Source: Aerolutibacter ruishenii | GTDB taxonomy: Bacteria > Pseudomonadota > Gammaproteobacteria > Xanthomonadales > Xanthomonadaceae | Direction of reading: 5' to 3' | Length of the DNA: 64,000 nucleotides | NCBI RefSeq assembly: GCF_007830115.1 | Contig: NZ_VLKP01000002.1 | Span: forward strand, 1 to 64,000 | Part shown: positions 7,753-61,555 of the stretch, piece by piece | Layout of the letters: each line of letters starts with the position of its first letter | How positions within the stretch are numbered: position 1 is the first letter of the stretch | The notes under the pieces: generated by a model | Told to the model about the DNA's origin: nothing | Databases searched by the model: none | The model's input: only the letters and a program-made list of their open reading frames with translations | Program-made: the position numbers and the translations under genes

Positions 7753-8210
7753 GCTTCGTTTTCCAGGTAGGCCATCGCGTCCGGTGGTTCGAACACCGAT
7801 ACGTTGGCCGTGGCCAGCTCCCGGCCTTCGGCCAGGATGCGGCAGGCGAAAACCCCCAGGCCATTTTCGCCCAATATCTCGCGGCGCGCCTCTACCCGCA
7901 GCCGCTGCCCGCTGTCGAAGGCGGGCACGGCGCTGTCGTAGCGGCGGGTGCCGAGCAGGAAGCCGACCGGCGGCGGCATGCCGCGCTCGCGCGCCTGGCA
8001 CCCGGCCCAGCAGGCCACCGCCTGCGCCATGTACTCCACGCCGACATAAGCGGGCACGCCGCCATCCACGTGGAAGGCGCTGTCGATGGGCACCGTGAGC
8101 TCGACGGCGACGGACTCCGCATCGCAGTCCAGCACGCGATCCAGCAGCAGCATCGCCCCACGGTGCGGGATCACCTGCTCGATGTCATGGATGGGAAACC
8201 CGTGCGCCAT
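7749..8210 (-). CDS. Hotdog-fold 3-hydroxyacyl-ACP dehydratase (ApeP-like)
   Basis: A 153-residue single hotdog protein. It begins IEQVIPHRGAMLLLDRV, the FabZ/FabA-like entry segment, and has the central helix GVEYMAQAVACWAGCQAR typical of the ApeP/XanG class, with PVGFLLGTRRYDS downstream. It would dehydrate 3-hydroxyacyl-ACP to the conjugated enoyl chain. In characterised systems ApeP works with ApeI; here the ApeI-like domain is fused to the AMP-ligase at 18042-19787. Its ATG shares one base with the preceding KS stop (TGATG at 8208-8212). Confidence 0.9.
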   Translation of the reverse strand: MAHGFPIHDIEQVIPHRGAMLLLDRVLDCDAESVAVELTVPIDSAFHVDGGVPAYVGVEYMAQAVACWAGCQARERGMPPPVGFLLGTRRYDSAVPAFDSGQRLRVEARREILGENGLGVFACRILAEGRELATANVSVFEPPDAMAYLENEA

Positions 8211-9400
8211 CAGCCTTCTCCCAGCAACAGCACGGCATTGCTGCCGCCGAATGCGAACGACTGGCTGAGCACGTAGCGCAACGGTGCCTGCGTGCGACGG
8301 CCAGGGACGACGAAATCGAGCGGGGGCAGTCCGGGATCAGCCGCGCCGTCCCACCAGTGCGGCGGCAGGTGGTTGCCCGGGTTGCGGGCCATCGCCAGCC
8401 AACACAACCCGGCTTCGATCGCACCGGCGGCACCGAGCGCGTGCCCGGTCAGTGGCTTGGTCGAACTCATGGGCACCGCCTCGCCCAGCGTGGCGAACAC
8501 CGCCCGGCTCTCCATGGCATCGTTCTGCGGCGTCGCGGTGCCGTGCAGGTTGACGTAGCCCACGTCGTCGGCACCGATGCCGCCGCGCGCCAGCGCCTGT
8601 GCGATCGCGGCGATGGCGCCGGTGCCCTGCGGTTCGGGCGCCGACATGTGGTGCGCGTCCGAGCTCTCGCCCCAGCCGGCCAGCCGCACCGGGCCGGGGC
8701 CACGGGTCAGCAGGAACAGTGCCGCGCCTTCGCCGATGTTGATCCCGTCGCGGTGGCGTGAGAACGGATTGCAGCGGCGCGCGGACACCGATTCCAGCGC
8801 ACTGAACCCGCCGATGGTGAACGCGCACAGCGAGTCCGCACCACCGGCGATGACCGCATCGACGATGCCGGCGCGCAACAGGCGGGCCGCCGAGGCCAGC
8901 GCCTTGGCACTGGACGAACACGCGGTCGAGATCGTCCACGCCGGACCGCGCGCGCCGGACTCGCGGGCGACGAAGCGCGATGGCGCGCCCATCTCCTGCT
9001 GCTCGTAGTGGAAGTCCGCCGGCCACTGTCCGTGTGCCAGCAGGTGCGGCAGCGCGCGCTCCGGCTCGCCGATGCCCGAGGTGCTGGTGCCGATCACCAC
9101 GGCCACCCGGTGCGCGCCATGGCGCTCGATGGCGGCGGCGGTTGCCTCGCGGATCTGGGCGAAGGCGGCGCGCAGCAGGGCGTTGTTGCGGCTGCGGAAG
9201 GGCATTTCGCAATCGGCGAGGTCGGGCAGCGCAGACTGCACCGCGCCCAGCGGCAACGGTCGCCCCGGCGTGTAGCCATCCGTGGTCGCCACGCCGCGCG
9301 CGGCGTCGGCGGCGAACAGCGCGCCGGCAACGGCCTGCTGGCCGCATCCCAGCGCACAGACGATGCCCAGTTCGTTCAAGTACACCGGCGGCGCGCTCAT
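8210..9400 (-). CDS. Beta-ketoacyl-ACP synthase of the aryl polyene operon (ApeO-like)
   Basis: A 396-residue condensing enzyme with a full triad: STACSSSAKA, NLHGTATPQND and KPLTGHALGAAGAIE. It is somewhat shorter than FabF and has the QSFAFGGSNA C-terminal loop. By position between the DUF3261 lipoprotein and the dehydratase it corresponds to ApeO, the elongating ketosynthase that pairs with a chain-length-factor-like partner (here the product of 21663-22502). ATGA overlap with the lipoprotein stop at 9397-9400 fixes the start. The KS/CLF pairing is known from type II aryl polyene synthases and inferred here. Confidence 0.93.
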   Translation of the reverse strand: MSAPPVYLNELGIVCALGCGQQAVAGALFAADAARGVATTDGYTPGRPLPLGAVQSALPDLADCEMPFRSRNNALLRAAFAQIREATAAAIERHGAHRVAVVIGTSTSGIGEPERALPHLLAHGQWPADFHYEQQEMGAPSRFVARESGARGPAWTISTACSSSAKALASAARLLRAGIVDAVIAGGADSLCAFTIGGFSALESVSARRCNPFSRHRDGINIGEGAALFLLTRGPGPVRLAGWGESSDAHHMSAPEPQGTGAIAAIAQALARGGIGADDVGYVNLHGTATPQNDAMESRAVFATLGEAVPMSSTKPLTGHALGAAGAIEAGLCWLAMARNPGNHLPPHWWDGAADPGLPPLDFVVPGRRTQAPLRYVLSQSFAFGGSNAVLLLGEG

Positions 9401-9975
9401 CGACGCCCGCCCTCGGCCGATTGCGATCCGGGCGTCGCGTCTTCACTGGCGATGGTGGCGATGTCCAGCCGATAGCCTTCGGCCAGGTTCTCCAGCCGCA
9501 GCCCGCCCGCTTCACCGCGGGCCACCGACAGCCACGCGCGCCCGTCGTGCATCAGCTGGCGGACGTCGCCGGCCTCGTGCAGGGTCCATCCTGGCGGCAA
9601 CGCGCGGCGGATCGCATCGACCGGCCACAGCGCGAACTGCAGGTCGTCCAGCACCCGTTCGGCACGCACCGCGGGCGGCAACCATGCGGCACGCTGTTGA
9701 CGCAGCGCCTGTCCGTCCCAGAACAGCCGCACACCGGCCTGCCCCATGGCCTGCACCACCAGCCGCACCTCGCCTGCCTCGACCTCCAGCAGCGCGTCCA
9801 TGTCGCGCGCCTGCGTGCCGAAGCTGAAATGCAGTTGCTGCTGGACCGCGACCTCCCGACCCAGCGAGGCCGGCGACAGCCGCAGCGGCGGCAGCTCGAT
9901 TGCTGGGCGCGGCGGTGCATGCGCGCACGCGGCCAGCACGAGCACGGCCAGCAGTGCGGCGATCAGGCGGCGCAC
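9397..9975 (-). CDS. DUF3261 lipoprotein of the aryl polyene operon (ApeN-like)
   Basis: A 192-residue lipoprotein starting with GTG at 9975 (MRRLIAALLAVLVLAAC); the lipobox LAAC places the lipidated Cys near residue 17. The mature part (ASLGREVAVQQQLHFSFG and similar) fits the DUF3261 family found in aryl polyene clusters. It probably helps pass the finished pigment lipid to the outer membrane together with the LolA-like and MMPL proteins (inference from family context). The start is chosen from the signal peptide; it overlaps the methyltransferase stop by 13 bases. The longer in-frame extension upstream is arginine/glycine-rich shadow sequence. Confidence 0.82.
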   Translation of the reverse strand: MRRLIAALLAVLVLAACAHAPPRPAIELPPLRLSPASLGREVAVQQQLHFSFGTQARDMDALLEVEAGEVRLVVQAMGQAGVRLFWDGQALRQQRAAWLPPAVRAERVLDDLQFALWPVDAIRRALPPGWTLHEAGDVRQLMHDGRAWLSVARGEAGGLRLENLAEGYRLDIATIASEDATPGSQSAEGGRR

Positions 9976-11057
9976 GCGGCGTCCTGCTGGCGCTTCACCA
10001 CCTTGGTCACGGTGTGGCTGATGCCCACGCCATCGACCTCCTCGGCCACCGCCAGTCCGGCGCGCTCGATGCACCGGTGCAGCACCGAGGAGTGGTACAT
10101 CTGGCTGTTGCCATTGGCAATGCAGGTGAAATACAGCGAGGTCTGCTGCAGGCAGAACGCGGCATTCTCGAAGCGCTGCCGGTCCCAGTACGTTTCCATG
10201 ATGTACAGCCGGGTCCGCGGCGTCATCACCCGCGCCGCCTTCTCCAGGACCATCACGATCTCGTCCTCGGAGAAACAGTCCAGGAACTGGCTCATCCAGA
10301 TCACGTCATGGCCGCCGGGCAGCGGCAGCTCCGGCCGCAGAATGTCGATGGGGTGTTCGGCCACCCGGTCGCCGAAGCCGCGCGCATCGACGTGCACGCG
10401 TGCCTGGGCCAGTTGCCCGGGCAGGTCGCACATGGTCACACGCACGTCGGGCGCATGGTTGGCGCAGGCGATGGCCCACTTGCCGGTGTTGGCGCCCACG
10501 TCGAGGATCGACGCCACCGGCTCGCTGAAGATCAGCGGCAGCACGCTCTGGAAGGAATTGTCCGAGTAGTAGTGGTCGAACCTGAACCAGCTTTCGCGGA
10601 TGTGGCCCGGCAACGTGGCCAGCGCCTCGTACACGGTCCGTGATCCGGGCGCGATTTCCTTCAGTCCGGCGGGTCGGCCCTCGACCAGGCTTTCCTGCAG
10701 GTGGAACAGGCCCTTGTAGTTGACGTCGTGGGTGAAGTCCATGTTCACCTGGGTCATCGGGTCGTTGAGCAGGTACCAGCCCAGCTTGCTGAGCACGAAG
10801 CGGTCCTGCTTCAGCACCAGGCTGCCGATGCCCAGTCCCGCTTCCGCCAGCACGCGTACGGCATACGTGGACAGCCCGACCCGCTCGACGATCTCCTCCA
10901 GCGCCAGCCCGTCGTCGCCCGCGGCCTCGATGGCGCGCAGCACGCCCAGGTCACGGAGCGCCTTGGAGGCCTGGAAGACGAACGGGCCGAAGGCGATGCG
11001 CTGTGCTTCCTGTTTCGCCTGCAGGGCGCTGTGTCGGTCTTGGTCGAAGTGGTTCAC
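9963..11057 (-). CDS. SAM-dependent methyltransferase of the aryl polyene operon (ApeB-like)
   Basis: A 364-residue class I methyltransferase with an N-terminal winged-helix dimerisation part (GLALEEIVERVGLSTYAVRVLAE) and a Rossmann domain with SAM motif SILDVGANTGKWAIACA and acidic loop VTMCDLPGQ. The layout matches the O-methyltransferase (plant COMT-like) family. In aryl polyenes it is expected to methylate the aryl head. The start is GTG at 11057, with only a weak ribosome site. A 150-base gap separates it from the MMPL gene upstream, the widest gap in an otherwise overlapping operon. Confidence 0.88.
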   Translation of the reverse strand: MNHFDQDRHSALQAKQEAQRIAFGPFVFQASKALRDLGVLRAIEAAGDDGLALEEIVERVGLSTYAVRVLAEAGLGIGSLVLKQDRFVLSKLGWYLLNDPMTQVNMDFTHDVNYKGLFHLQESLVEGRPAGLKEIAPGSRTVYEALATLPGHIRESWFRFDHYYSDNSFQSVLPLIFSEPVASILDVGANTGKWAIACANHAPDVRVTMCDLPGQLAQARVHVDARGFGDRVAEHPIDILRPELPLPGGHDVIWMSQFLDCFSEDEIVMVLEKAARVMTPRTRLYIMETYWDRQRFENAAFCLQQTSLYFTCIANGNSQMYHSSVLHRCIERAGLAVAEEVDGVGISHTVTKVVKRQQDAACAA

Positions 11058-11207
11058 GTGTCGGGTCCGAGGGTGGTGGAATGCCGGCAGGCCTTTGCGC
11101 GGCAGGTAGGGAGGCCGGCATGGCCGGCAGCGGCAGTCGGGGAATACGTGCCGGTCGCCCGGCGGATGTGGGTGCGGCGGACAGTGGCCGCGATGTGGCG
11201 GGAACGG
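11058..11207. other. Intercistronic gap in the pigment operon with an inverted repeat
   Basis: These 150 bases are the only sizeable gap in the 16.7-kb operon. ATGCCGGC (11081-11088) pairs with GCCGGCAT (11114-11121). There is no T-run, so it is more likely an mRNA-processing or stabilising hairpin than a terminator. No clear promoter is visible. Confidence 0.4.
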
Positions 11208-13541
11208 CTAGCCATGGCCCTGCTCCGCACGCGGCCGGAACAGCGGCGACAGCAGCCACACCAGGCCGATGCCCAGCAGCAGGGTCAGGCCGAAGGCGCG
11301 CAGCGCGGGCGTGGCCGACAACGCGAGCAGGCCAAACGACAGCCACGTGCTGGCCGCGCCGACGCACACCGCCAGCCAAGCGGAGGCATCGCCGCGGTGT
11401 TCGAGCAGGAAGATGCCGTAGTCGATGCCCATGCCGAGCAGCAACAGCAACGCGAGCACGTTGAACAACTGCAGTGGCAAGCCCAGCCAGCCCAGGGTGG
11501 CGACGGTGAGGACGCCGGCCAGCAGGGTAGGCACGGTGGCGCGCCACGCATCGCGGCGGTAGCGCATCGCCAGCGTCACCGCCACCAGCACCATGCCGGC
11601 CAGCAACAGCCAGCCCATCATCTGCCGGTAATGGCCAAGCAGCGCGGAGAACTCGGCGGTGCGGTTGACCCAGCGCACGCCGTCGAGGCCGTCCGCCTGG
11701 GCCTGTAGCGCGGCCAGTGCCGCGGAGCCACCCACCGCGTCGACCAGCACCACGCTGCCGACACCGTCGCCACTGCGGCCCAGCCAAAGGTGGCGCAGTG
11801 GCTGCGAGGCGGGCGCGGCCAGCCACGCCTGCAACGTCAGCGGTTGCGATGCGAAATCCGCGCGCACCAGACTTTCGCCGGTGGCGGCCGATACGCGCTC
11901 CAGCACCGCCCCTTCCACCCGTGCGCCCAGGCGCGCATCGGCGCCCTGCTGGCGCTGCGACGGCAACCAGTCGCTGATCGCGCGGTATCCATTGATCCCG
12001 CCCTGCGCGTGCAGCGCCGCCAGCCGCGTGGTCAACGCCTGTTCGCGTTGCAGCAGCGTCTCCGCGTCGGGCGCCCGCACCAGGAAGAACTGCGCCGGGC
12101 TGGGCAGGCCCAGCAGGCGGCTGATCTCCATCTGCTGATCGACCAGCGTCTTGGGCGAGGACTGCAGGTTGCGCAGGTCATCATCGCTGCGCAGCTGCCA
12201 CAACCCGCCGAGCGCCAGTGCACCGGCGATGACCGCCGCGATCGCCCACGCACGGGTGGCGTGCACACGCGGCCAGCGCGCCAGCCAACCGGCGATCGCC
12301 TTCGACAGCGGCGTGGCCGCCGGCGCGTCACGCTCCAACCACGGGAACCAGCAGACCACGGTGGCGAATGCGGCGGCCAGCCCCGTCACCGAGAACACCG
12401 CCATCTGCCGCAGTCCCGGGAACGGTGCCAGGCCCAGCGCGAGGTAGGCCAGTGCACTCGTCAGCCAGGCCAGGAACATGCCGGGCAACAGCCAGCGCAA
12501 CAGGCGCCATTGCGAGCGCCGTGGATGGCCCTGGCGAGAGGCGAACCAGTGGATGCCGTAATCCTCTGCCACGCCCACCAGGCTGGCACCGAACACCAGG
12601 GTGAGCAGATGCACCTGGCCGAACATCAGCGCTGTCACCGACAGCGCGGTGGCCACGCCCACCAGCAGCGACATCGCCACCAGCAGGATCGGCGTCAGCG
12701 AGCGGAAGGCCAGCCACACCAGCAGCAGCACCGCGGCCAGCGAACCCAGGCCGATGATGTTGACCTCGTGGCTGGCCCGCACGGCGGCGGTCTCGGCGTG
12801 CAGCGGAACGCCTGCGCGCAGCTCGCGCAGGCCCGGTGCCACGCGTTGCGCCGCGGCGCCGGCCTCATCCAGCGCAGCCTCGATCACGCGCTCGCCATCA
12901 AGGCGGAATGCCGAGCCGCGGGTCTCGAACTGCAACACCGCCCAGGCGCGGCCTTCGGCGTGCAGCAGGCCTTCGCCATCGAAGCGCAGCCCCGTGCCGG
13001 AGGCGCGCTCCTGCCACCACTGCGGCCAGAGGTTGAGCGGGTCGGCGCGCCAATCGGTCAGGCGCGGTGCGCCCATCGGGCCGTACAGTGCGGCCAGCGC
13101 TTCCTCGGCCAGCATGTCCGCGGATTGCGTGAGTAGCCGCTCGCGTTGCGCGGCGGTCAGCAGCCGATCGCGCCAAGGCGCGTAGAACGCGCGCGAAGCC
13201 TCGAACCAGCCGGCCATCGACGCACCCTCGGCGAACGGCAGCGGCTGCCGGCGTTCGGCCGCCTGCAACGCGGTGCGATATGCCGATGCGGCCGCCTGCG
13301 CCTGCGCCGCATCGGCTGCACCCAGCAGCACCACCATCTGCCGCGCGCTGGCATCGGCGATGCGCCGGGTGGCTTCCGCCAGCACCGGGTCGTGCGCATC
13401 CTGGGGCAACAGGGCAAGCACGTCGCTTTCCAGGCGCGATTCGCCCCAGAAGCGCAACTGGTGCGCACCCACCGCCAGCACCACGCCGAGCCACAGCCAG
13501 GCCAGCCAGCGCCAGCGACGGCGTGTGCGCGCCTCAGTCAA
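11208..13541 (-). CDS. MMPL/RND-family exporter of the aryl polyene operon (ApeM-like)
   Basis: A 777-residue inner-membrane protein with the MMPL plan: one N-terminal helix (LAWLWLGVVLAVGAH), a large periplasmic domain, a bundle of five to six helices (NIIGLGSLAAVLLLVWLAF onward, with GVAEDYGIHWF), a second N-terminal-type helix (AIAAVIAGALALGGLW), a second periplasmic loop and a second bundle containing GMGIDYGIFLLEH. The paired acidic motifs VAEDYGI and GIDYGIF are the proton-relay signature of the family. It probably moves the lipid-linked pigment across the inner membrane. The start appears to be TTG at 13541, overlapping the LolA-like stop by 8 bases; no ATG or GTG lies nearby in frame. 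Confidence 0.9.
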   Translation of the reverse strand: MTEARTRRRWRWLAWLWLGVVLAVGAHQLRFWGESRLESDVLALLPQDAHDPVLAEATRRIADASARQMVVLLGAADAAQAQAAASAYRTALQAAERRQPLPFAEGASMAGWFEASRAFYAPWRDRLLTAAQRERLLTQSADMLAEEALAALYGPMGAPRLTDWRADPLNLWPQWWQERASGTGLRFDGEGLLHAEGRAWAVLQFETRGSAFRLDGERVIEAALDEAGAAAQRVAPGLRELRAGVPLHAETAAVRASHEVNIIGLGSLAAVLLLVWLAFRSLTPILLVAMSLLVGVATALSVTALMFGQVHLLTLVFGASLVGVAEDYGIHWFASRQGHPRRSQWRLLRWLLPGMFLAWLTSALAYLALGLAPFPGLRQMAVFSVTGLAAAFATVVCWFPWLERDAPAATPLSKAIAGWLARWPRVHATRAWAIAAVIAGALALGGLWQLRSDDDLRNLQSSPKTLVDQQMEISRLLGLPSPAQFFLVRAPDAETLLQREQALTTRLAALHAQGGINGYRAISDWLPSQRQQGADARLGARVEGAVLERVSAATGESLVRADFASQPLTLQAWLAAPASQPLRHLWLGRSGDGVGSVVLVDAVGGSAALAALQAQADGLDGVRWVNRTAEFSALLGHYRQMMGWLLLAGMVLVAVTLAMRYRRDAWRATVPTLLAGVLTVATLGWLGLPLQLFNVLALLLLLGMGIDYGIFLLEHRGDASAWLAVCVGAASTWLSFGLLALSATPALRAFGLTLLLGIGLVWLLSPLFRPRAEQGHG

Positions 13542-50790: not shown

Positions 50791-53700
50791 GTGATTCCTG
50801 GCTGGTTGCTGCTGCTGGTATCGGTGGCCTACGTGGGCGTGCTGTTCATCGTCGCCTACTACGGCGACCAGAGCGACACCACGCCGCGGGCGAAGTGGCT
50901 GCGGCCGGTGGTGTACTCGCTGGCGCTGGCGGTGTACTGCTCGTCGTGGACGTTCTACGGCGCGGTCGGCACCGCGGCCCGTACCGGGCTGGGTTTCCTG
51001 CCGATCTACCTCGGGCCGCTGCTGCTGCTGGTGTTCAGCTGGCGCATCCTCGAGCGGCTGGTGCTGATCTCCGGCGAGAACCGCATCGTCTCCATCGCCG
51101 ACTTCCTGTCCTCGCGCTATGGCCGCGCGCCCGGACTGGCCGCGCTGGTGGCGGCGGTGGCGCTGACCGCCGCCGTCCCTTACGTCGCGCTGCAGTTCAA
51201 GGCCGTGGCGATGAGCGTGCAGGTACTGGCCGGCACGCCGGCCGAGCCGGGCGTGCTGGGCGACCCGGCGTTCTACATCGCGCTGCTGCTGGCGGTGTTC
51301 TCGATCCTGTTCGGCACCCGGCAGATCGACGCCACCGAGCACCACCATGGCATGGTGCTGGCGGTGGCGCTGGAGTCGCTGGTCAAGCTGCTGGCGTTCG
51401 TGGCCATCGGCGTGTTCGCGCTGGTGCACCTGCCCGGCAACGGCGGCCTGCTGGAGCGCGTGGCCGACGCCACCCGCGTGGTGGTGACGCCGGGCCTGCC
51501 CACCGGCTTCGTCGCGCAGACCCTGCTCGCGTTCGTCGCGATCCTGTGCCTGCCACGCCAGTTCCACGTTGCGGTGGTCGAGTGCCAGGACCCCAACGAC
51601 GTGCGCGCCGCACGCTGGATGTTCGGCGGCTACCTGGTGCTGTTCTCGCTGCTGGTGGTGCCGATCACGCTGGCCGGGCAGTCGATCCTCGCCGGCTCGG
51701 GCGTCTCGCCGGACACCTACGTGCTGGCGCTGCCGCTGGCGCTCGGCCATGACACGCTGGCGCTGATGGCCTACGTGGGCGGCTTCTCCGCCGCGACCGG
51801 CATGGTGATCGTGTCCAGCGTGGCCCTGGCGACGATGGTCAGCAACGACCTGGTGATGCCGTTGCTGTTGCGCAGCCAGACGCTGCGCCAGGGCCCCGGC
51901 ATCGACCGCCAGGTGCTGTGGGTACGGCGCATCACCATCCTCGCGCTGGCGATGATGGCCTACGGCTACCACCGCGGCTCCGCCGGTGCGAACACGCTGG
52001 CGCAGCACGGCCTGCTCGCCTTCGCGGCGGTGGCGCAGTTCGCGCCAGCGCTGATCGGCGGCCTGTACTGGCGCGGCGCCAGCCGCCCGGGCGCGCTGGC
52101 GGGCGTGCTCGCCGGCACGCTGGTGTGGGTGTACACGCTGCTGTTGCCGGCGTTGGCGCAGGGCGGCTGGATCGCCGGCGACTGGATCGACACCGGGCCG
52201 CTGGGCATCCAGTCGCTGCGCCCGGAGCAACTGTTCGGCCTGGGCGGTTGGGACCGCCTCACCCACGGCACATTCTGGTCGCTGCTGTTCAACATCGCCG
52301 CATTCGTCCTTGTATCGGTGCGCCAGCGGCCGCGCCTGCAGGACCAGTTGGCGGCCGCGCCTTTCCTCGACCCCTACGTGCAGCGTCCGCCACTCGGCCC
52401 CGGCGGCTGGGCCGGCAGCGTGCGCAGCGGCGAACTGCTCGCCCTGGCCGAACGCATCGTCGGCGAACGCCACGCACGTCGCTCGTTCGAGGACTATGCG
52501 GCGCAGCAGTACGACACCTGGAACCCCGACCGTCCCGCCGACCGTGCGCTGGCGCAGTTCACCGAGCGCCTGCTCGCCTCCGCCATTGGCGCCGCCTCCG
52601 CACGCCTCACCCTGACCACCGCGCTGCGCGGCTCGGGCATGGAACTGGGCGAAGTGGTCGCCGTGCTGGACGAGGCCAACGAGGAACTGCGCTTCAACCG
52701 GCAGGTGCTGTCCACCACGCTGGACAACATCAGCCAGGGCGTGAGCGTGGTCGACCGCGACATGCGCCTGGTGGCCTGGAACAAGCGCTACCAGGAGCTG
52801 CTCGACTACCCCGACGGCATGCTCTACGTCGGCCGCCCGGTCGCCGACCTGATCCGCTGGAATGCCGAACGCGGCGAGCTCGGTCCGGGCGCCATCGAGG
52901 ACAAGGTGCGCCGTCGCATGGACCACATGCGCGCCGGCACCCCGCACATCTTCGAACGCGTGCGCGCCAATGGCCAGGTGATCGAGATGCGCGGCCGTCC
53001 GCTGCCCGGCGGTGGCTACGTGACCAGCTACAGCGACGTCACCGACTACAAGCGCGCCGAACAGCAACTGCGCGAGGTCAACGAGACGCTGGAGCAACGC
53101 GTGGACCTGCGCACGCGCGAGGCCGAGGCGGCGCAGCAGTCCAAGACCCGGTTCCTGGCCGCGGTCAGCCATGACGTGCTGCAGCCGCTCAACGCCGCGC
53201 GCCTGTTCACCACCGCGCTGCGCGAGAGCCCCGACGGCACCGAACAGCAGCACCTCGCCGAGCGCATCGACGCCTCGCTGCGCGCCGCCGAGGACCTGCT
53301 CGATGGCCTGCTGGACATCTCGCGCCTGGATGCCGGCGTGCTCAAGCCGGAGATCACCGACTTCGATGCCGGCGAACTGCTGCGCGAACTGGCCGCGCAG
53401 TATGCCCCCACCGCCGCCGGCCGCGGCCTGCAACTGCGCGTGCGTGCGCCGATGAGTCCGTTGCCGGTGCGCAGCGACCGCCGCCTGCTGCGCCGCGCGC
53501 TGCAGAACTTCCTCGCCAACGCGTTGCGCTACACCCGCGAAGGCGGCGTACTGATGACCGCTCGCCAGCGCGATGGCGGCCGTATCGAGCTGCAGGTATG
53601 GGATACCGGCCCTGGCATCTCCGTGCACCACCTGGAACAGATCTTCGACGAGTTCCGCCGCTTCGACCAGCCCGGCGTGGGCGGCGAGCGTGGCCTTGGA

Positions 53701-54282
53701 CTGGGCCTGTCGATCTGCCAGCGCATCGCGCGCACGCTCGACCACCCGCTGTCGGTGCGTTCACGCGTCGGCATGGGCAGTGTGTTCACCATCACCGTGC
53801 CGCTGGCGCCGGCGCTGCAGGCACCCAAGCCCGCGCCGCCGGAGGGCAACGTCATCGCCGATTCACTGGCCGGGTTGCGCGTGCTGTGCGTGGACAACGA
53901 CCGTGAAATCCTCGACGGCATGCGCACCCTGCTGGAACGCTGGCGGGTGACCGTGCTTACCGCCGCGAGTGCCGACGACGCGATGGCGATGCTCGACGAG
54001 CGGCCGCACGTGCTGCTGGTGGACTACCACCTGCATGACCGGCTCGACGGCCTGGGCGTGATCGACGCCCTGCGCGAGCGCCTCGGTGCCCGGCTGCCGG
54101 CCGCACTGGTGACCGGGGACGGCAGTGACGCGATCAAGCTGGCCGCGCGCGAACGCGGCTGCCCGGTGCTGACCAAACCGCTCAAGCCGGCTTCGCTGCG
54201 CGCGTTCCTCGCCGCGCAGCGGCAGCCTCAACCGCGGACCAGCTCCAGCACCGTCGCCGGCCCGACACCGTCCTCGCCATAG
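50791..54282 (+). CDS. crbS: Hybrid sensor kinase with SLC5 transporter-like domain (CrbS/MxtR type)
   Basis: A 1163-residue protein. Residues 1 to about 520 form a sodium:solute symporter (SLC5) domain of about 13 helices (WLLLLVSVAYVGVLFIVAYY, GFLPIYLGPLLLLVFSWRIL, and so on). A PAS domain (TLDNISQGVSVVDRDMRLVAWN) follows, then a HisKA/HATPase core with phosphorylated His794 in AAVSHDVLQPLNAARL and G-box ERGLGLGLSICQRI, and a receiver with Asp1078 in LLVDYHLHD. In Vibrio and Pseudomonas such kinases control acetyl-CoA synthetase through a LuxR-type regulator; both partners lie 3-6 kb away here. The start is GTG after GGAGG. Its end overlaps the opposite gene by 55 bases. Confidence 0.9.
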   Translation: MIPGWLLLLVSVAYVGVLFIVAYYGDQSDTTPRAKWLRPVVYSLALAVYCSSWTFYGAVGTAARTGLGFLPIYLGPLLLLVFSWRILERLVLISGENRIVSIADFLSSRYGRAPGLAALVAAVALTAAVPYVALQFKAVAMSVQVLAGTPAEPGVLGDPAFYIALLLAVFSILFGTRQIDATEHHHGMVLAVALESLVKLLAFVAIGVFALVHLPGNGGLLERVADATRVVVTPGLPTGFVAQTLLAFVAILCLPRQFHVAVVECQDPNDVRAARWMFGGYLVLFSLLVVPITLAGQSILAGSGVSPDTYVLALPLALGHDTLALMAYVGGFSAATGMVIVSSVALATMVSNDLVMPLLLRSQTLRQGPGIDRQVLWVRRITILALAMMAYGYHRGSAGANTLAQHGLLAFAAVAQFAPALIGGLYWRGASRPGALAGVLAGTLVWVYTLLLPALAQGGWIAGDWIDTGPLGIQSLRPEQLFGLGGWDRLTHGTFWSLLFNIAAFVLVSVRQRPRLQDQLAAAPFLDPYVQRPPLGPGGWAGSVRSGELLALAERIVGERHARRSFEDYAAQQYDTWNPDRPADRALAQFTERLLASAIGAASARLTLTTALRGSGMELGEVVAVLDEANEELRFNRQVLSTTLDNISQGVSVVDRDMRLVAWNKRYQELLDYPDGMLYVGRPVADLIRWNAERGELGPGAIEDKVRRRMDHMRAGTPHIFERVRANGQVIEMRGRPLPGGGYVTSYSDVTDYKRAEQQLREVNETLEQRVDLRTREAEAAQQSKTRFLAAVSHDVLQPLNAARLFTTALRESPDGTEQQHLAERIDASLRAAEDLLDGLLDISRLDAGVLKPEITDFDAGELLRELAAQYAPTAAGRGLQLRVRAPMSPLPVRSDRRLLRRALQNFLANALRYTREGGVLMTARQRDGGRIELQVWDTGPGISVHHLEQIFDEFRRFDQPGVGGERGLGLGLSICQRIARTLDHPLSVRSRVGMGSVFTITVPLAPALQAPKPAPPEGNVIADSLAGLRVLCVDNDREILDGMRTLLERWRVTVLTAASADDAMAMLDERPHVLLVDYHLHDRLDGLGVIDALRERLGARLPAALVTGDGSDAIKLAARERGCPVLTKPLKPASLRAFLAAQRQPQPRTSSSTVAGPTPSSP

Positions 54283-56000
54283 GCGCGCACGCGGTCGCGG
54301 CCGCTGGCCTTGGCCTGGTACATGGCGACGTCGGCGTGGGCGAACATCGCCTCGAACGCGTAACCGGATCGGCCCGAGGTGGTGCAACCGAAGCTGGCGG
54401 TGACCGGCTGGCCGATGACGGACGTGTCGATGGCCGCCAGGTGCTCGCGGCAGCGCTGGGCGATACGCCGCGCCGCATCCACGTCACTGCCGCAGGACAG
54501 GAGGGCGAATTCCTCGCCACCGAGGCGCGCGCATATGTCGCCTTCGCGGCAAGCCGCCTGCAGCGCCACCGCGACCTGCTGCAGCACCCAGTCGCCCACT
54601 GCATGGCCGTGGGAGTCGTTGATGCGCTTGAAGTGGTCCAGGTCGAGCAGCACCATCGACGCATCACGCCCGGCGCTGGCGCAGCGCTGCAGCAGTGCCT
54701 CGCCGGTCTGGCGGAAGTGGCGACGGTTGCTGATGCCGGTGAGCCCGTCCACCTGGGCTTGGCGCCGGAACTTCACCTGCACGCGCTTGACCTTGTAGGC
54801 CCAGTAGGCGATGGCGGCCATCACCATCGCCAGTAGCACCAACAGCAACTGGTTGTTGCGTGTGGCCGCCTCGCTGACCTCCTGCTGCAGCGTCAGCACC
54901 TCGTTCTGCTTCTGCAGCAGTTCAATGGCCTGGTTCTTCTGCTGCAACTCGTGGCGGCTCAGCTGGAAGGCGAACTCCCGTGCCTTGATCTCGTCAAGAC
55001 GCGCCTTGTCGGCTTCAGCGTAATTTCGGTACTCACGGAGCGCGACCCTCAAGTCGCCGCGCTTGAGGGCTGTTTCAAACAGCACTTTGTACGCGGTCAC
55101 CAGTGGCTGCGAGAAAGCATCCCGCTCCCCCAATTCCAGCACCGTGCGGGCATCCAGTTCCGCACCCGCCAAGTCGCCTGTGGCTTGGCGATACTCGGCA
55201 AGCAGGCTATGAATTTCGCCGATCAGTCTCGGAAAGCCCGTTGCCTCCACTTCGGACAGATGGGCTTCGAGCAGTCCAATGGCTTCATTGTTCTTGCCCT
55301 CCGCTGCCCATAGCCGCGCCAGGTAACCACGGAGCAGCCCCGTGGCAATAGGCTCCTTTTGCGCGACGCAGTCGCTGATCGCGAAATTGATATCCTGCTC
55401 ACTATTCGCGCCGGACCCAAGCTTCCACTCCGCCTCTATTTTCTTCTCGCGGGCCACACATCGGGTCCGTGGCGTGGTTTGAATAGCCAGAAGGTGCTTC
55501 GCATGGTGCAGCGTGAGCGAATGCTGTCCATATTCGGTGTACAGAACTGCGGCGACGAGGGAGCCCAGGTGGCGCTCGTCGGCCTCTGGAACCTGATCCT
55601 GCATGGCCAGGGCTGCTTCCAGGTAGCGCAAGCCCAATGAGAACTCCCGCGTAATCGCGGCGGTGTTGGCGGCCAGCAGCGCGGCCCGGAACTTGAGTGT
55701 TGGGTCGTCGGTACGCTTATGGATATCGATGGCGTCGGTGATGGCGGTCCGGTAGTCGCCGGTAAGCACCTTCTGGTACGTCTTCAGGAACCGGATTTGC
55801 AGCTTCTGCTTCGGCGTCGCCTCTGGCTCGAATCTGTCCAGACCGTCCAGCGCATTGGCAAATGCCTGTGGATCACGGGTACGAACCGACTCAGCCTGCT
55901 TCAGGGCGTTCTCGATATCAGCAGCCTGTGCTGGCCAAGCTGCCAATACCCCAGCCCCCAGGACAACGGCGATCAGCACGTCACGGATCGATTTGCACAT
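54228..56000 (-). CDS. TPR-containing exported diguanylate cyclase (GGDEF)
   Basis: A 590-residue protein: signal peptide (DVLIAVVLGAGVLAAWPAQA), a periplasmic region of tetratricopeptide-like helices (GLLRGYLARLWAAEGKNNEAIGLLEAH and others), a coiled coil with QKNQAIELLQKQNEVLTLQQ, one membrane helix (NQLLLVLLAMVMAAIAYWAY) and a cytoplasmic GGDEF domain with QVDGLTGISNRRHFRQ, LDLDHFKRINDSHGHAVGD and ARLGGEEFALL (GGEEF). It would couple a periplasmic signal to cyclic di-GMP. GC is lower than in its neighbours (about 53-58 percent in 55381-55500). ATG 56000 follows GAGGA. It is 82 bases after the borosin precursor and may share its transcript. Confidence 0.9.
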   Translation of the reverse strand: MCKSIRDVLIAVVLGAGVLAAWPAQAADIENALKQAESVRTRDPQAFANALDGLDRFEPEATPKQKLQIRFLKTYQKVLTGDYRTAITDAIDIHKRTDDPTLKFRAALLAANTAAITREFSLGLRYLEAALAMQDQVPEADERHLGSLVAAVLYTEYGQHSLTLHHAKHLLAIQTTPRTRCVAREKKIEAEWKLGSGANSEQDINFAISDCVAQKEPIATGLLRGYLARLWAAEGKNNEAIGLLEAHLSEVEATGFPRLIGEIHSLLAEYRQATGDLAGAELDARTVLELGERDAFSQPLVTAYKVLFETALKRGDLRVALREYRNYAEADKARLDEIKAREFAFQLSRHELQQKNQAIELLQKQNEVLTLQQEVSEAATRNNQLLLVLLAMVMAAIAYWAYKVKRVQVKFRRQAQVDGLTGISNRRHFRQTGEALLQRCASAGRDASMVLLDLDHFKRINDSHGHAVGDWVLQQVAVALQAACREGDICARLGGEEFALLSCGSDVDAARRIAQRCREHLAAIDTSVIGQPVTASFGCTTSGRSGYAFEAMFAHADVAMYQAKASGRDRVRAYGEDGVGPATVLELVRG

Positions 56001-56082
56001 CACGGTTCCTCTCGAGCCCACCGTTGGCGCAATGCTGGCCGCGCTCGGGACATCCGAGGCGCGGCTGGGCCAACGAGCCTGG

Positions 56083-56367
56083 TTACTTCAGCGCCGGCTC
56101 TTCGTCCGGCTTCTCCTCGCCTTCGTCGGTATGGTCATCGCCGGGAGGACTCTTTTCGTCGCCGTCCGGGCTAACGACAAAACTGAAACAGAACATCGGC
56201 GAGTTCGCATCCAGGGCGTGCACCAGTCCCTTGGCATCGCGCCGCAACAGCGCCTCGCGCGAAGGCTCGTCAACTTCCGCATCCATCACGGCCTGGGTGT
56301 AGTCCGCATCGGACAGCAGTGCCGGGTGCCGCCCCATGCTTTCAAGAAACTGCACGACATTCGACAT
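56083..56367 (-). CDS. Split-borosin precursor peptide (candidate RiPP)
   Basis: A 94-residue protein with no signal peptide. Residues 1 to about 55 are helical (VVQFLESMGRHPALLSDADY, then a VMDAEV helix and ALLRRDAKGLVHAL), the layout of the borosin-binding domain of split borosins such as SonA. Residues 56-67 (SPMFCFSFVVSP) are hydrophobic and are the likely core for backbone N-methylation. Residues 68-94 are an acidic Pro/Asp/Glu-rich tail. The ATG at 56367 follows AAGGAG with 7-base spacing; a TTG two codons upstream is rejected. It lies 2 bases after the methyltransferase stop. Methylation has not been shown here; assignment is by domain layout and genetic linkage. Confidence 0.8.
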   Translation of the reverse strand: MSNVVQFLESMGRHPALLSDADYTQAVMDAEVDEPSREALLRRDAKGLVHALDANSPMFCFSFVVSPDGDEKSPPGDDHTDEGEEKPDEEPALK

Positions 56368-56369
56368 CC

Positions 56370-57221
56370 TCAAACTCCTTCTTCCAGTGGTAACGAAGCG
56401 ATAATCGGGGTAGCGGCCATATCGGCGCGCTCAACCGCCTCAATCCGCGCCAGCATGTCAGGATCAGGTTGCAGCATCGCGGCCGGGGGCAGCACCAGTG
56501 TGCTGTGCATGTGCAACTGCGCATCGGGCAGGTCGCGCAACTTCACCCGCTCCATCCGCGGCTCGCTGATCGGCAGGGTGGCGGCCTCGTAAACGATGAC
56601 CTCGTGGTAGGCCGGGTAATCCTCGATCAGGCGCTCGACCAGCAGTCGGCGGAGGGCTGGCCCTGTGGCGAAGCGGGTACAGCTGCGGTCGCCGGCGATG
56701 CCGATCTGCCAGAGCACCAGATACGCCGCAGGATCGATCCGGCGGCGGTAGAACATGAACTGGCTGGCCTCGTAGTGTTGGCATCCGTAGCGACCCGGAT
56801 CGATGCCAAGATCGGCATACAGGCAGTCCTCGGCCGAGACGCCGGGCTCCATGTGTGCAAGGAAGCCTTCACGTCGGGCTTGGGCGATGGCGTCATGCGC
56901 CACCTGAGCGAACACGCCGGGATGACCATAGAACGCACCGCAGACCTGTTTGCCAGCGCGGACCTCGACCAGCATGGCGTCGACCATTTCGCGGTAGGTC
57001 TGGCGGCGTGACTTGCCCACGGCATAGTACGGCTGCAGGCTGTGCACCTCCTGGTGCATCTGCTTCAGCCAGAGTTCCACCAACGGGTCGGACACAGCCG
57101 CGAACACCACATCGGATTGCTCGATGTGACTTCGGGCGCGCGGCCCGATATGGGCACCCAGCATCATCCCCAGACCAACGCAGACGAGGCGGCCAGGCTT
57201 GTCTCCTGCAGGCGTCCCCAC
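56370..57221 (-). CDS. Borosin alpha-N-methyltransferase (tetrapyrrole-methylase fold, split type)
   Basis: A 283-residue SAM enzyme that methylates backbone amides of a partner peptide. GRLVCVGLGMMLGAHIG starts the TP-methylase fold; PYYAVGKSRRQTYREMV and CGAFYGHPGVFAQVAHDAI follow, then ARREGFLAHMEPGVSAEDCL, YADLGIDPG and YEASQFMFY. Tyr66, Arg72, Tyr76 and Tyr98, numbered from the GTG start, fall where the catalytic residues of the fungal borosin enzyme OphMA lie. The start is GTG at 57221, preceded by AAGGAG at 8 bases, rather than the distal TTG. It resembles SonM of Shewanella and is not fused to a peptide, hence the split type. Confidence 0.92.
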   Translation of the reverse strand: MGTPAGDKPGRLVCVGLGMMLGAHIGPRARSHIEQSDVVFAAVSDPLVELWLKQMHQEVHSLQPYYAVGKSRRQTYREMVDAMLVEVRAGKQVCGAFYGHPGVFAQVAHDAIAQARREGFLAHMEPGVSAEDCLYADLGIDPGRYGCQHYEASQFMFYRRRIDPAAYLVLWQIGIAGDRSCTRFATGPALRRLLVERLIEDYPAYHEVIVYEAATLPISEPRMERVKLRDLPDAQLHMHSTLVLPPAAMLQPDPDMLARIEAVERADMAATPIIASLPLEEGV

Positions 57222-57253
57222 GCGCTGCTCTCCTTGGATTAGGTATCCAATAG

Positions 57254-57281
57254 ACAATACCGCGCCCACGGCAAAATGCAA
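57254..57281 (-). promoter_or_regulatory. Putative promoter of the borosin operon
   Basis: On the minus strand TTGCAT (57276-57281), a 16-base spacer, then TATTGT (57254-57259). The start of transcription would be near 57247, about 25 bases before the GTG start. It separates the borosin genes from crbR. Confidence 0.5.
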
Positions 57282-57314
57282 AACAGGTCACATTTCAGGC
57301 GGCAGGCGCCGCCG

Positions 57315-57989
57315 TCAGTCGCCCTCTTCCGGCGGCGGCACGATCGCCCCCGGGTCCAGCGCCAGCCGCCCGGCGATCAGCACGGCCTGGGTGCGGTTGT
57401 TGGCCCCCAGCTTGCGCAGGATGGCGGTGACGTGGGCCTTGACCGTGGCCTCGGACACGCCCAGCTCGTAGCCGATCTGCTTGTTGAGCAGGCCGCTGCC
57501 GAGCATCTGCAGCACGCGGAACTGCTGCGGGGTCAGGTCGCGCAGGCGGTTGGCCGCGTCGTGCTCGTCGGCCGCCGCGGCGGGCGCGCTCAGCGCGGAA
57601 GCCGGGGCCCAGCGGTCGCCGTCCAGTACGGTGGCGATCGCCTGGCCCAGGGTCGCCGCATCGGCCGACTTGGGAATGAAGCCAATGGCGCCATGGTCCA
57701 GCGCGCGGCGCATCACCGCTGGCTCCTCGCGGGCGGAGACCACCACGATGGGCAGCTGCGGGTACAGCGCGCGCAGGTGCACCAGCGCGCTGAAACCCTG
57801 TGCGCCGGGCATGTTGAGGTCCAGCAGCAGCAGGTCGGCGTCGGGATACGACTCGACCAGCGCGTACAGCGCGTCCACGCTGTCGGCCTCGTGCAGTCCG
57901 GCGTTGGGCAGCACGCGCGCCACGGCGCCGCGCAGCGCCTCGCGGAACAGGGGGTGGTCGTCGGCAATGAGCAGGGTGGCCATGGCCAT
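57315..57989 (-). CDS. crbR: LuxR-family response regulator (CrbR/ErdR type)
   Basis: A 224-residue NarL/LuxR regulator. Receiver: TLLIADDHPLFREAL (acidic pocket) and phospho-acceptor in LLLLDLNMPGAQGF, with conserved lysine in GFIPKSADA. DNA-binding: LTPQQFRVLQMLGSGLLNKQIGYELGVSEATVKAHV. It follows acs after 3 bases on the same strand, and together with CrbS makes the acetate-switch pair that activates acs in other gammaproteobacteria. It is the obvious ligand of the palindrome at 60054-60100 (inference). Confidence 0.88.
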   Translation of the reverse strand: MAMATLLIADDHPLFREALRGAVARVLPNAGLHEADSVDALYALVESYPDADLLLLDLNMPGAQGFSALVHLRALYPQLPIVVVSAREEPAVMRRALDHGAIGFIPKSADAATLGQAIATVLDGDRWAPASALSAPAAAADEHDAANRLRDLTPQQFRVLQMLGSGLLNKQIGYELGVSEATVKAHVTAILRKLGANNRTQAVLIAGRLALDPGAIVPPPEEGD

Positions 57990-57992
57990 ACC

Positions 57993-59945
<1,953 letters not shown>

Positions 59946-60053
59946 GGCGCACTCCCGTTGAAGGTGGCACTTAGGCATTGGCGCGGCGCCACGGTGGCGG
60001 CGCGTTACCCAAGTGTGCCGCAAGCACCACCCGCAACAGGGACGTGGCGCGTT

Positions 60054-60100: not shown

Positions 60101-60181
60101 ATGGCGAATGGTTGTGCAGCGCGATAGCCAAGCAGGCTGGCCGCGCCCGTGCAGACCGCACGGCTGTCCTTGGGAGGGAAC

Positions 60182-61555
60182 ATGTCCATTCGCAGTAGTT
60201 CGCACGGTCTGCCGGCAACGCCACGCAAGCGCGCGCTCGCCGCCGCATTGGTGGTCGCGCTCGGCGTGCCGGGCCTTGCCTTCGCGCAGAGCGCAAAGGA
60301 GCAGGCACTTGAAGCCCGCGTGGCCGAGCTGGAGAAGATGGTGCAGCAGCTGGTGTCCCAGCAGCAGCAACAGCAGGCCCAGATCGGCGAGGTGAAAACC
60401 GCGCAGGCCACGCAACCGGCGGTACCGGCCGGCAAGCGTCCGATCCAGTCCACGACGATCACGCCGGGCGCGGTGCCCGGCACCACGTTCAAGTTCGGCG
60501 GCTTCGTCAAGGCCGACTTCCTCGCCACCCAGACCGGTGACGGCCAGTTGGCCGATGACGCCACCGGCCGCTCGCTGTACCTGCCGGGGCAGACGCCGGT
60601 GCATGGCGCCGGCGGCAGCGGCGAGAGCTCCGGCGTGGACTACAACGCCCACGCCAAGTTCTCGCGCTTCAATCTGGGCGTGGACCACGTCGCCGAGAAC
60701 GGTGACAAGGCCGGCGCGCTGTTCGAGATGGACTTCTTCGGCAACGCGCTGGGCAACCAGACCGCCACCAATACCTACGGCGTGACCCTGCGCCACGCGT
60801 ACATGTACTGGAACAACTGGCTGGCCGGCCAGACCTGGTCCAACTTCATGGACGCGGCCTCGATCCCCGAAGCGGTGGATTTCGTCGGCCCCACCGATGG
60901 CGTGCTCTTCGTGCGCCAGGCACAGGTGCGCTACACCAAGGGTGGCCTGAGCGTCTCGCTGGAAAACCCGGAAACCACCCTGGTCAACGGCGCCTCCTCC
61001 GACCGCGGCACCATGCCCGACCTGACCGTGCGTTACGGCTGGAAGGGTGACTGGGGCACGTTCGGCATGGCCGGCCTGGTACGCCAGCTCAAGATCGACC
61101 GCCCCGGCTTCGACGACAGCGAGATCGGTGGCGGCGTGACCGTGGGCGGCAAATGGGTCATGGGCGGCAACGACGCGCTGCATTACCAGCTCACCGGCGG
61201 CGAAGGCATCGCCCGCTACGTGGGCCTGGGCATCGTCGGCGATGCATCGGCCGATGCCAGCGACGGCAGCCTGGACGCCACCGGCGTGCTTGCCGGCTAC
61301 GTCGGCTGGCGCCATGCGTTCACGCCCAAGCTGCGCACCAACCTGATCTACGCCCGCAGTGACTATGACCACGAAGCGTCGATCACCGGCCCGCTGGTGA
61401 CCAAGAGCGTGCAGAGCCTGCGCACCAACCTGTTCTACAGCCCGATGCCCAAGGTCGACGTGGGCGCCGAGCTGATGTACGGCGTGCGCGAAATCGAGGA
61501 CGGCCGCAAGGGCGATATCCGCCGCGTGCAGTTCACCACCAAGTACAGCTTCTGA
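60182..61555 (+). CDS. DcaP-like outer-membrane porin
   Basis: A 457-residue outer-membrane protein. Signal peptide (RALAAALVVALGVPGLAFAQ), a short coiled coil with a Gln run (AELEKMVQQLVSQQQQQQAQ, residues about 45-65) for trimerisation, then FKFGGFVKADFLATQTGDG and a 16-strand-like barrel (SRFNLGVDHV, GVTLRHAYMYWNNWLAGQTW) ending in KYSF with the terminal phenylalanine needed for assembly. DcaP porins pass dicarboxylates and related acids, which fits a place beside acs. ATG 60182 follows GGGAGG. The MHS transporter follows after 14 bases. Confidence 0.92.
   Translation: MSIRSSSHGLPATPRKRALAAALVVALGVPGLAFAQSAKEQALEARVAELEKMVQQLVSQQQQQQAQIGEVKTAQATQPAVPAGKRPIQSTTITPGAVPGTTFKFGGFVKADFLATQTGDGQLADDATGRSLYLPGQTPVHGAGGSGESSGVDYNAHAKFSRFNLGVDHVAENGDKAGALFEMDFFGNALGNQTATNTYGVTLRHAYMYWNNWLAGQTWSNFMDAASIPEAVDFVGPTDGVLFVRQAQVRYTKGGLSVSLENPETTLVNGASSDRGTMPDLTVRYGWKGDWGTFGMAGLVRQLKIDRPGFDDSEIGGGVTVGGKWVMGGNDALHYQLTGGEGIARYVGLGIVGDASADASDGSLDATGVLAGYVGWRHAFTPKLRTNLIYARSDYDHEASITGPLVTKSVQSLRTNLFYSPMPKVDVGAELMYGVREIEDGRKGDIRRVQFTTKYSF

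Follow-up and report, generated by a model that had tools for sequence, protein, structure and literature searches.

What does a bacterial borosin do once its backbone has been methylated? The question is raised by a locus in a 64,000-nucleotide stretch of Aerolutibacter ruishenii DNA (family Xanthomonadaceae; contig NZ_VLKP01000002.1, positions 1 to 64,000), which is termed "the window" here. The original prediction read positions 56083 to 57221 as a split-borosin locus. The locus is indeed a type IV split borosin, with methylation presumed by homology, but its reading as an enzyme-precursor pair only missed a third gene, at 54228 to 56000. As judged from gene neighborhoods, the conserved unit is three genes, which encode an N-methyltransferase, its precursor, and a diguanylate cyclase with a tetratricopeptide repeat (TPR)-like region, a transmembrane (TM) segment and a GGDEF domain. 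The TPR-TM-GGDEF gene points to a signaling role rather than to a stand-alone natural product. We lean modestly toward a model in which the methylated product is the ligand of the adjacent TPR-TM-GGDEF sensor and sets cyclic di-GMP (c-di-GMP) levels, and in which exchange of a variable block between close relatives defines signal specificities.

The cassette has the following features, in window coordinates.

56370 to 57221, minus strand: borosin alpha-N-methyltransferase of the SonM/OphMA type, 283 amino acids (SonM match, TP_methylase, catalytic Tyr/Arg)
56083 to 56367, minus strand: split-borosin precursor, 94 amino acids (alignment, SonA profile match, fold Z 6.2 over 51 residues)
56206 to 56367, minus strand: borosin-binding domain (leader), residues 1-54 (predicted helices and SonA/OphMA/LigAB fold)
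56161 to 56202, minus strand: probable core, residues 56-69, SPMFCFSFVVSPDG (core rule across class I precursors; fourfold repeat in L040)
56086 to 56160, minus strand: acidic C-terminal tail, residues 70-94 (no secondary structure, low predicted local distance difference test score, pLDDT)
54228 to 56000, minus strand: TPR-TM-GGDEF diguanylate cyclase, 590 amino acids, proposed receptor (GGDEF match, GGEEF, RxxD, model, conserved linkage)
54876 to 55928, minus strand: TPR-like sensor region, residues 25-375, including Cys181 and Cys211 (AlphaFold model)
54291 to 54758, minus strand: GGDEF catalytic domain, residues 415-570 (Pfam PF00990)
55022 to 57308, strand not applicable: hypervariable block of enzyme, precursor and TPR half of the cyclase (same-genus genome comparison, synonymous divergence)

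A split borosin methyltransferase and its precursor

The enzyme matches the Pfam family TP_methylase (E 2.8e-19) and, in the PDB, SonM (E 2.4e-77), dbOphMA (6.3e-51) and OphMA (3.1e-49), which bears out the TP-methylase fold and SonM-like pattern that had been noticed in its sequence. The proposal that Tyr66, Arg72, Tyr76 and Tyr98 occupy catalytic positions also holds, as the first three align with Y58, R67 and Y71 of SonM and the fourth maps to SonM position 93. The main text of PMC8429565 credits Y58, R67 and Y71 with stabilizing the deprotonated amide. The lock residues F99, W166 and E146 are retained, and an arginine replaces SonM Q178.

In a midpoint-rooted tree of 113 enzymes, the cyclase-linked rows lie within one group of 105, together with L155 and with L131, whose branch is very long. 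All SonA-like rows cluster in a single clade, and rows in which the enzyme is fused to the cyclase (see below) join L130 in one clade of 14. The window's enzyme is placed in a sister group of the SonA-like enzymes. At L081-L083, in g6 genomes, the methyltransferase is ~450-510 amino acids long and has a C-terminal extension that is LigA-like by eye; by such inspection, these loci represent a further type of fused borosin within this family.

The enzyme gene starts with GTG at 57221, with AAGGAGAG upstream, and stops with TGA at 56370. After a 2-base gap, the downstream precursor gene begins with ATG at 56367, preceded by its own ribosome-binding site (AAGGAG), and stops at 56083. Both open reading frames (ORFs) are thus where they had been placed, on the minus strand.

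Searches with the single precursor sequence produced no match in Pfam or NCBIfam and only chance matches in the PDB (E 1.6 or worse), and Foldseek found no significant match for its predicted model (best E 1.7). A profile of 34 sequences, the window's precursor and 33 homologs, weakly matches SonA (E 0.0046). This profile also matches the sister-group precursors (hhalign probability 96.7), which in turn match SonA with an E of 7.5e-15. The predicted model has helices at residues 3-13, 20-29, 34-41 and 45-51 and no secondary structure beyond residue 51. When this model is compared by VIA-align, the top 20 of 36 rows are all SonA, OphMA/dbOphMA or LigAB (Z 5.1-6.2 over 50-59 residues), and the next unrelated row has a Z of 2.6. 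Because both the profile and VIA-align match these proteins, the precursor is taken to carry a borosin-binding domain. The SonA-like helical domain of the original prediction is therefore recovered by profile search and by structure prediction alike. A model of this domain matches 98 of 395 genomes of the family, and all 98 also contain the methyltransferase, a co-occurrence that speaks against a chance ORF. The ratio of nonsynonymous to synonymous divergence between the window's precursor and those of two relatives is ~0.24 and ~0.31, a codon comparison by which the precursor is under purifying selection.

The predicted hydrophobic C-terminal stretch is seen as the probable core, and the acidic tail follows it. 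Among class I precursors, the hydrophobic stretch ends in Pro-acidic in 87 of 90, which serves as the core rule; the three precursors with no core by this rule were dropped, and in a few rows, such as L056 and L174, the rule picks a doubtful stretch. A Cys is found within nine residues before the core Pro in 68 of the 87, mostly at -4 or -5. The resulting motif, hydrophobic-Cys-x-hydrophobic and then Pro-acidic, is kept across families. Cys accounts for 7.2% of core residues, compared with 0.34% of leader and 0.35% of tail residues, and the tails of relatives are 37% Asp and Glu. In the Luteimonas-group precursors L172, L179, L182, L183 and L185, the borosin-binding domain is shortened or degenerate, and the core and acidic tail are intact.

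The assignment of the window's pair to the type IV split borosins is supported by sequence, catalytic residues, gene arrangement and the modeled fold of the leader domain. As in SonM-SonA of Shewanella oneidensis (main text of PMC8429565), the enzyme is separate, the small precursor with its borosin-binding domain is adjacent, and the catalytic residues are the same. N-methylation of the precursor core is thus presumed from homology to SonM-SonA. However, the SonA core lies at the C-terminus, whereas that of the window contains Cys and Pro and is followed by the acidic tail. By these sequence features, the locus is a new split-borosin member with a core class unlike that of SonA.

A membrane diguanylate cyclase is the third gene

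The cyclase gene lies directly downstream of the precursor gene, on the same strand. Its product starts with a signal-peptide-like N-terminus and continues with a helical-repeat domain, a single TM segment (~384-402) and a GGDEF domain (Pfam E 9.9e-41) with GGEEF and RxxD motifs. Only GGDEF is recognized by Pfam, and none of the Pfam TPR models matches. The helical domain is modeled by AlphaFold as a TPR-like superhelix (pLDDT 90), with a long terminal helix toward the membrane. Among 48 unfused relatives, GGEEF is present in all, a signal-peptide-like start in 47, and a TM segment after the sensor domain in most; the sensor domain is predicted to be periplasmic.

Cys181 and Cys211 are both present in 115 of 115 sensor homologs, a count that leaves out one of 13 fusions for want of a sensor match. 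These residues reside on neighboring helices in the model, and they would suit a periplasmic disulfide. Direct thiol pairing of the core Cys with this pair was considered and rejected: the pair is invariant also beside cores that lack Cys, and so it is more likely to be structural.

The three genes are linked across genera

The sensor region was searched on its own across the 395 family genomes with a cut-off of E 1e-20. The enzyme is present in 132 of these genomes, as the split form in 103 (105 hits), as other forms in 34, and as both in 5. The sensor is present in 103, and 101 of those also hold the split enzyme. The exceptions are G163 and G192, with the sensor and no split enzyme, and G022 and G043, with the split enzyme and no sensor. 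Fisher's test for this co-occurrence gives 1.8e-89, which is too strong a value given the relatedness of the genomes. An enzyme is encoded no more than 6 kb away for 111 of 123 sensor hits, on the same strand in all 111, and a precursor hit is found within 400 bases upstream of the sensor hit in 96 of the 123. Ten of the remaining 27 sensor hits belong to one genus, g28, in which the precursors L064 and L089 keep the core and have a degenerate leader region, so that the borosin-binding-domain model misses them. The A. ruishenii genome has 27 GGDEF matches, and we estimate from gene number that a GGDEF gene would lie at one given neighboring place by chance in ~1% of cases.

A pattern scan of named genomes, which favors enzymes close to that of the window, produced 67 loci. 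These are found in Lysobacter, Luteimonas, Pseudoxanthomonas, Vulcaniibacterium, Dyella, Tahibacter, Steroidobacter, Peristeroidobacter, Povalibacter, Rheinheimera, Shewanella, Alkalimonas, Neiella, Colwellia, Alteromonas, Aestuariibacter, Aliiglaciecola, Pleionea, Aliikangiella and several metagenome-assembled genomes (MAGs). A TPR-GGDEF gene follows the enzyme on the same strand in 66 of the 67, and the remaining locus, L155, stops at a contig edge. For 12 of these 66 loci, no match to the precursor model precedes the first cyclase, but inspection by eye shows a small ORF there with a like core or acidic tail.

When protein families were counted over 68 loci (stop-to-stop ORFs of at least 120 amino acids, flanks up to 6 kb), only the enzyme and the cyclase were general, at 67 of 68 each. 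The next family was an acetyltransferase, at 16 of 68. This GNAT acetyltransferase (L161:5394-5951; Acetyltransf_3 E 2.1e-20) resides just upstream of the methyltransferase, and possibly it is a second tailoring enzyme or is unrelated.

The linkage extends to relatives of the characterized system. The genus that includes Shewanella salipaludis (L174) is represented by 97 genomes, of which 83 encode the enzyme, and sensor and GGDEF matches lie beside it in 21 of 21 loci examined, the SonA-like ones included. In L224 and L232 the sensor and GGDEF are in separate frames, and L228 and L229 have no precursor hit. The L220-L222 precursors are very like SonA (56 of 60 residues for L220, a by-eye count); no member of this set was recognized by name as S. 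oneidensis. In a sample across the class, the enzyme is present in 9 of 369 genomes, A. ruishenii included, and the distant enzymes mostly lack a cyclase: L129 and L130 have one, L131 and L133-L136 have none, and L132 has a weak TPR match only.

Precursor-cyclase pairs also occur in multiple copies or apart from the enzyme. Twelve named loci have two cyclases, and a precursor hit stands before each cyclase in four of them (L168, L176, L193, L210); in L171 and L175 the missing second precursor was recovered by motif. Two pairs are present at L062 and L066 as well, and L139, L140 and L141 are pairs on contigs without an enzyme hit.

In a sister clade, the TPR-GGDEF protein is fused to the methyltransferase at the cytoplasmic end of the cyclase, and a SonA-like precursor lies upstream of the fusion in all 13 loci examined (L071-L080, L084-L086). 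This fusion is probably not new, because Figure 1 of PMC11395268, according to its legend, shows a borosin that bears GGDEF. We liken that borosin to the 13 fusions, whereas the cyclase of the window is a separate gene. The same legend mentions no TPR, receptor or variable block.

Precursor and sensor half are exchanged as a block

The same-genus reference for the window is L031/L149, from Lysobacter daejeonensis GH1-9. Between the window and L149, flanking DNA is ~86% identical up to 57308 and again from 55022, which is inside the cyclase gene. Synonymous divergence (dS) in the flanks is 0.26 for acs, 0.31 for crbR, 0.37 for crbS and 0.23 for the transporter. Within the block, it is 1.43 for the enzyme, 1.42 for the precursor and 1.76-1.77 for the TPR part of the cyclase, compared with 0.51-0.52 for the TM-GGDEF part. 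As a control, the dS of a second GGDEF gene, farther away in the window, is raised (0.78) but even across its halves (0.81 and 0.75). Saturated synonymous sites beside well-conserved ones imply that distant alleles have been brought in and that more than rapid protein evolution is at work.

In its block, the window resembles L052, from another genus, more than L149, with dS values to L052 of 0.70 (enzyme), 0.80 (precursor) and 1.15 (TPR), and its TPR identity is 79% to L052 versus 56% to L149. The acs, crbR, crbS and GGDEF proteins are closer to those of L149, and the GGDEF part is 83% identical to that of L149 versus 67% for L052.

Other close relatives show the same pattern. The Pseudoxanthomonas pairs L167/L178 and L170/L178 have exchanged the same block, with the enzyme included. 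In the Luteimonas group, L179/L182 have a dS of 0.09 and 0.25 in the enzyme, 2.03 in the TPR part and 0.55 in the GGDEF part. In Rheinheimera, the enzymes of L171/L210 have a dS of 0.43 in the 5' half and 1.43 in the 3' half; the first TPR is saturated, the first GGDEF is at 0.45, and the second TPR is only at 0.92. The block is also seen in Rheinheimera L175/L176, where the enzyme is not included, and, with a MAG, in L168/L176. Rheinheimera rows with L184 were left out, as unlike cyclase copies were probably compared. Over the seven pairs, precursor and TPR are exchanged together wherever profiled, and part or all of the enzyme goes with them in five. TPR identity is lower than GGDEF identity in 107 of 119 pairs with both flanks at least 78% identical, although the pairs lack independence and unlike copies are set against each other in some. 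As read from these comparisons, a single block is swapped, made up of the precursor and TPR half and mostly also part or the whole of the enzyme, and the GGDEF half and flanks stay alike.

A peptide signal read by its own cyclase, and the alternatives

These observations suggest the following model. The SonM-type enzyme would bind the borosin-binding domain of the precursor and N-methylate backbone amides of the short hydrophobic core. The methylated product, either a released core peptide or the whole modified protein, would then be released and exported to the periplasm. There it may bind the TPR-like domain of the membrane cyclase and alter GGDEF output, and hence c-di-GMP. Block-swapped alleles would define different signal specificities.

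Several observations weigh against this model. No generally conserved protease or exporter was found in the 68 loci, within the ORF and flank limits given above. Because of this, housekeeping factors or passive permeability of the N-methylated peptide would have to serve. Cleavage of a double-glycine leader by a C39 exporter was tried as a general mechanism and rejected, as G[GA] is present in 40 of 90 class I precursors and absent in the window; C39 matches in the A. ruishenii genome amount to one, which is borderline (E 4.8e-4). The location of the sensor domain is a prediction only. Structural matches of the sensor model to Rap, NprR and AimR, which are receptors of peptide pheromones, speak for peptide sensing (Z 18-24), but unrelated eukaryotic TPR proteins match it equally or better (Z up to 27). 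TPR cyclases with the invariant Cys pair occur without a methyltransferase or recognized precursor (L137, L138, L142-L146), and these might be relatives that sense something else, or relics. Among the 12 loci with two cyclases, six contain at least one cyclase for which no precursor was recognized.

The exchanges themselves also present difficulties. The enzyme is not exchanged in L175/L176 or L179/L182. Distances between cores do not covary with those between TPR regions beyond the distances of enzyme and GGDEF (partial r 0.05, a value reached in 52 of 300 permutations), and core-receptor covariation was thus rejected as evidence; duplicate sensors had been removed (117 to 103), and cyclases without a precursor hit were not counted. 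Borosin-binding-domain and TPR distances give a higher partial r of 0.24, a figure without a permutation test. In the L179/L182 and L175/L176 swaps, the core changes little and the leader domain much. Recognition of the core alone is therefore unsupported; the entire modified precursor may serve as the ligand, or the leader may be important in some other way.

The most serious contender, which we nevertheless judge unlikely, is that the locus makes an ordinary split-borosin natural product, a secreted bioactive peptide, and that the cyclase does not bind this peptide and only ties its synthesis to surface life or biofilm. SonM does methylate SonA, and fungal borosins yield bioactive peptides, as passages of PMC8429565 and PMC11285071 state. 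Furthermore, at L040 (G022; 6850-11976), a precursor with four tandem cores is followed by a methyltransferase, a C39-peptidase ABC exporter and HlyD, with no TPR-GGDEF gene. This locus is perhaps an exported multi-core variant, and its arrangement suggests that cores of such precursors can be export cargo. However, a core motif kept across families, with Cys in so many of its members, weighs against this explanation, and a mere co-regulator leaves unexplained why the precursor swaps with the sensor half of the cyclase.

We consider it distinctly unlikely that control is cytoplasmic, in the sense that the precursor or an enzyme-precursor complex acts on the GGDEF side or on cyclase assembly and nothing is secreted. 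Such control would fit the fusion of the enzyme to the cytoplasmic end of the cyclase, the lack of a general exporter or protease, and the closer agreement of TPR distances with the borosin-binding domain than with the core. Yet it is the TPR half of the cyclase, rather than its GGDEF half, that varies along with the precursor, and the signal-peptide-like start and TM segment predict that the TPR half is periplasmic.

That the genes travel together without functional contact, with the variable block as a neutral recombination hot spot, appears improbable. The genomes and distant loci listed above that have a cyclase without the enzyme (G163, G192), or the enzyme without a cyclase (G022, G043, L131, L133-L136), are in its favor, and dS varies by gene anyway, as the second GGDEF gene shows in comparison with acs, crbR, crbS and the transporter. 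But the linkage holds across Lysobacter, Shewanella, Rheinheimera, Steroidobacter and Alteromonas, where the remaining neighbors all differ, precursor and cyclase are paired in several loci and enzyme and cyclase fused in others, and divergence that is even across the second GGDEF gene is uneven across the cassette cyclase. Most improbable is an inactive enzyme or precursor that acts as a binding partner only, for although one lock residue is replaced, the catalytic and other lock residues are intact, the precursor is under purifying selection, and the family includes SonM, which is active in vitro (main text of PMC8429565).

Comparison with known signaling systems

In comQXPA and agr pherotype loci, variation affects the modifying enzyme, the peptide precursor and the receptor's sensor half as one unit, and the output half and flanks are conserved. 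The enzyme, precursor and sensor half of the window likewise vary beside a conserved output half and flanks. Unlike those systems, the locus has a GGDEF output and presumed backbone N-methylation, its enzyme is not always in the block, and secretion and sensing of its product are proposed.

RRNPP receptors (Rap, NprR, AimR) are cytoplasmic. The cyclase sensor shares the general shape of their TPR-like superhelix in the model, as unrelated TPR proteins also do, but it is predicted to be periplasmic and membrane-anchored, with a GGDEF output and no helix-turn-helix or phosphatase output.

The words diguanylate, cyclase and tetratricopeptide are absent from the main text of the SonM paper (PMC8429565). 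In the open-access papers searched we found no report of a borosin-cyclase link, of precursor-cyclase pairing or of a pherotype-like block, although the surveys Imani 2022 and Lee 2024 may report the link.

Neighboring genes

The cassette is flanked in the window by the following genes.

50791 to 54282 and 57315 to 60023: sodium-symporter-type sensor kinase, LuxR-type response regulator and acetyl-CoA synthetase (acs)

These flanks resemble what we take to be an acetate-switch (Crb) locus, with crbR and crbS. An acetate-switch-like flank is common to only five of the 67 named loci, and these genes are therefore outside the conserved unit. A DcaP-like porin at 60149 to 61555 has 58% protein identity to the same-genus genome and a dS of 0.43; on these figures, it is changing fast as a protein, a mode different from that of the cassette.

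Implications

According to the main text of PMC8429565, no type IV borosin pathway has yet been tied to a final natural product. We tentatively raise the possibility that gammaproteobacterial type IV split borosins, the SonA type included, are pheromones read by their own cyclase and not antibiotics, and that block exchange leads to c-di-GMP pherotypes shared only among kin. Should the cyclase prove to be the receptor, what this widespread peptide family does would be directly testable, also in S. oneidensis, for which a strain, purified enzyme and structures exist. If true, the proposal would describe a Gram-negative peptide signal whose ligand is a backbone-methylated ribosomal peptide and whose output is c-di-GMP, with pherotypes.

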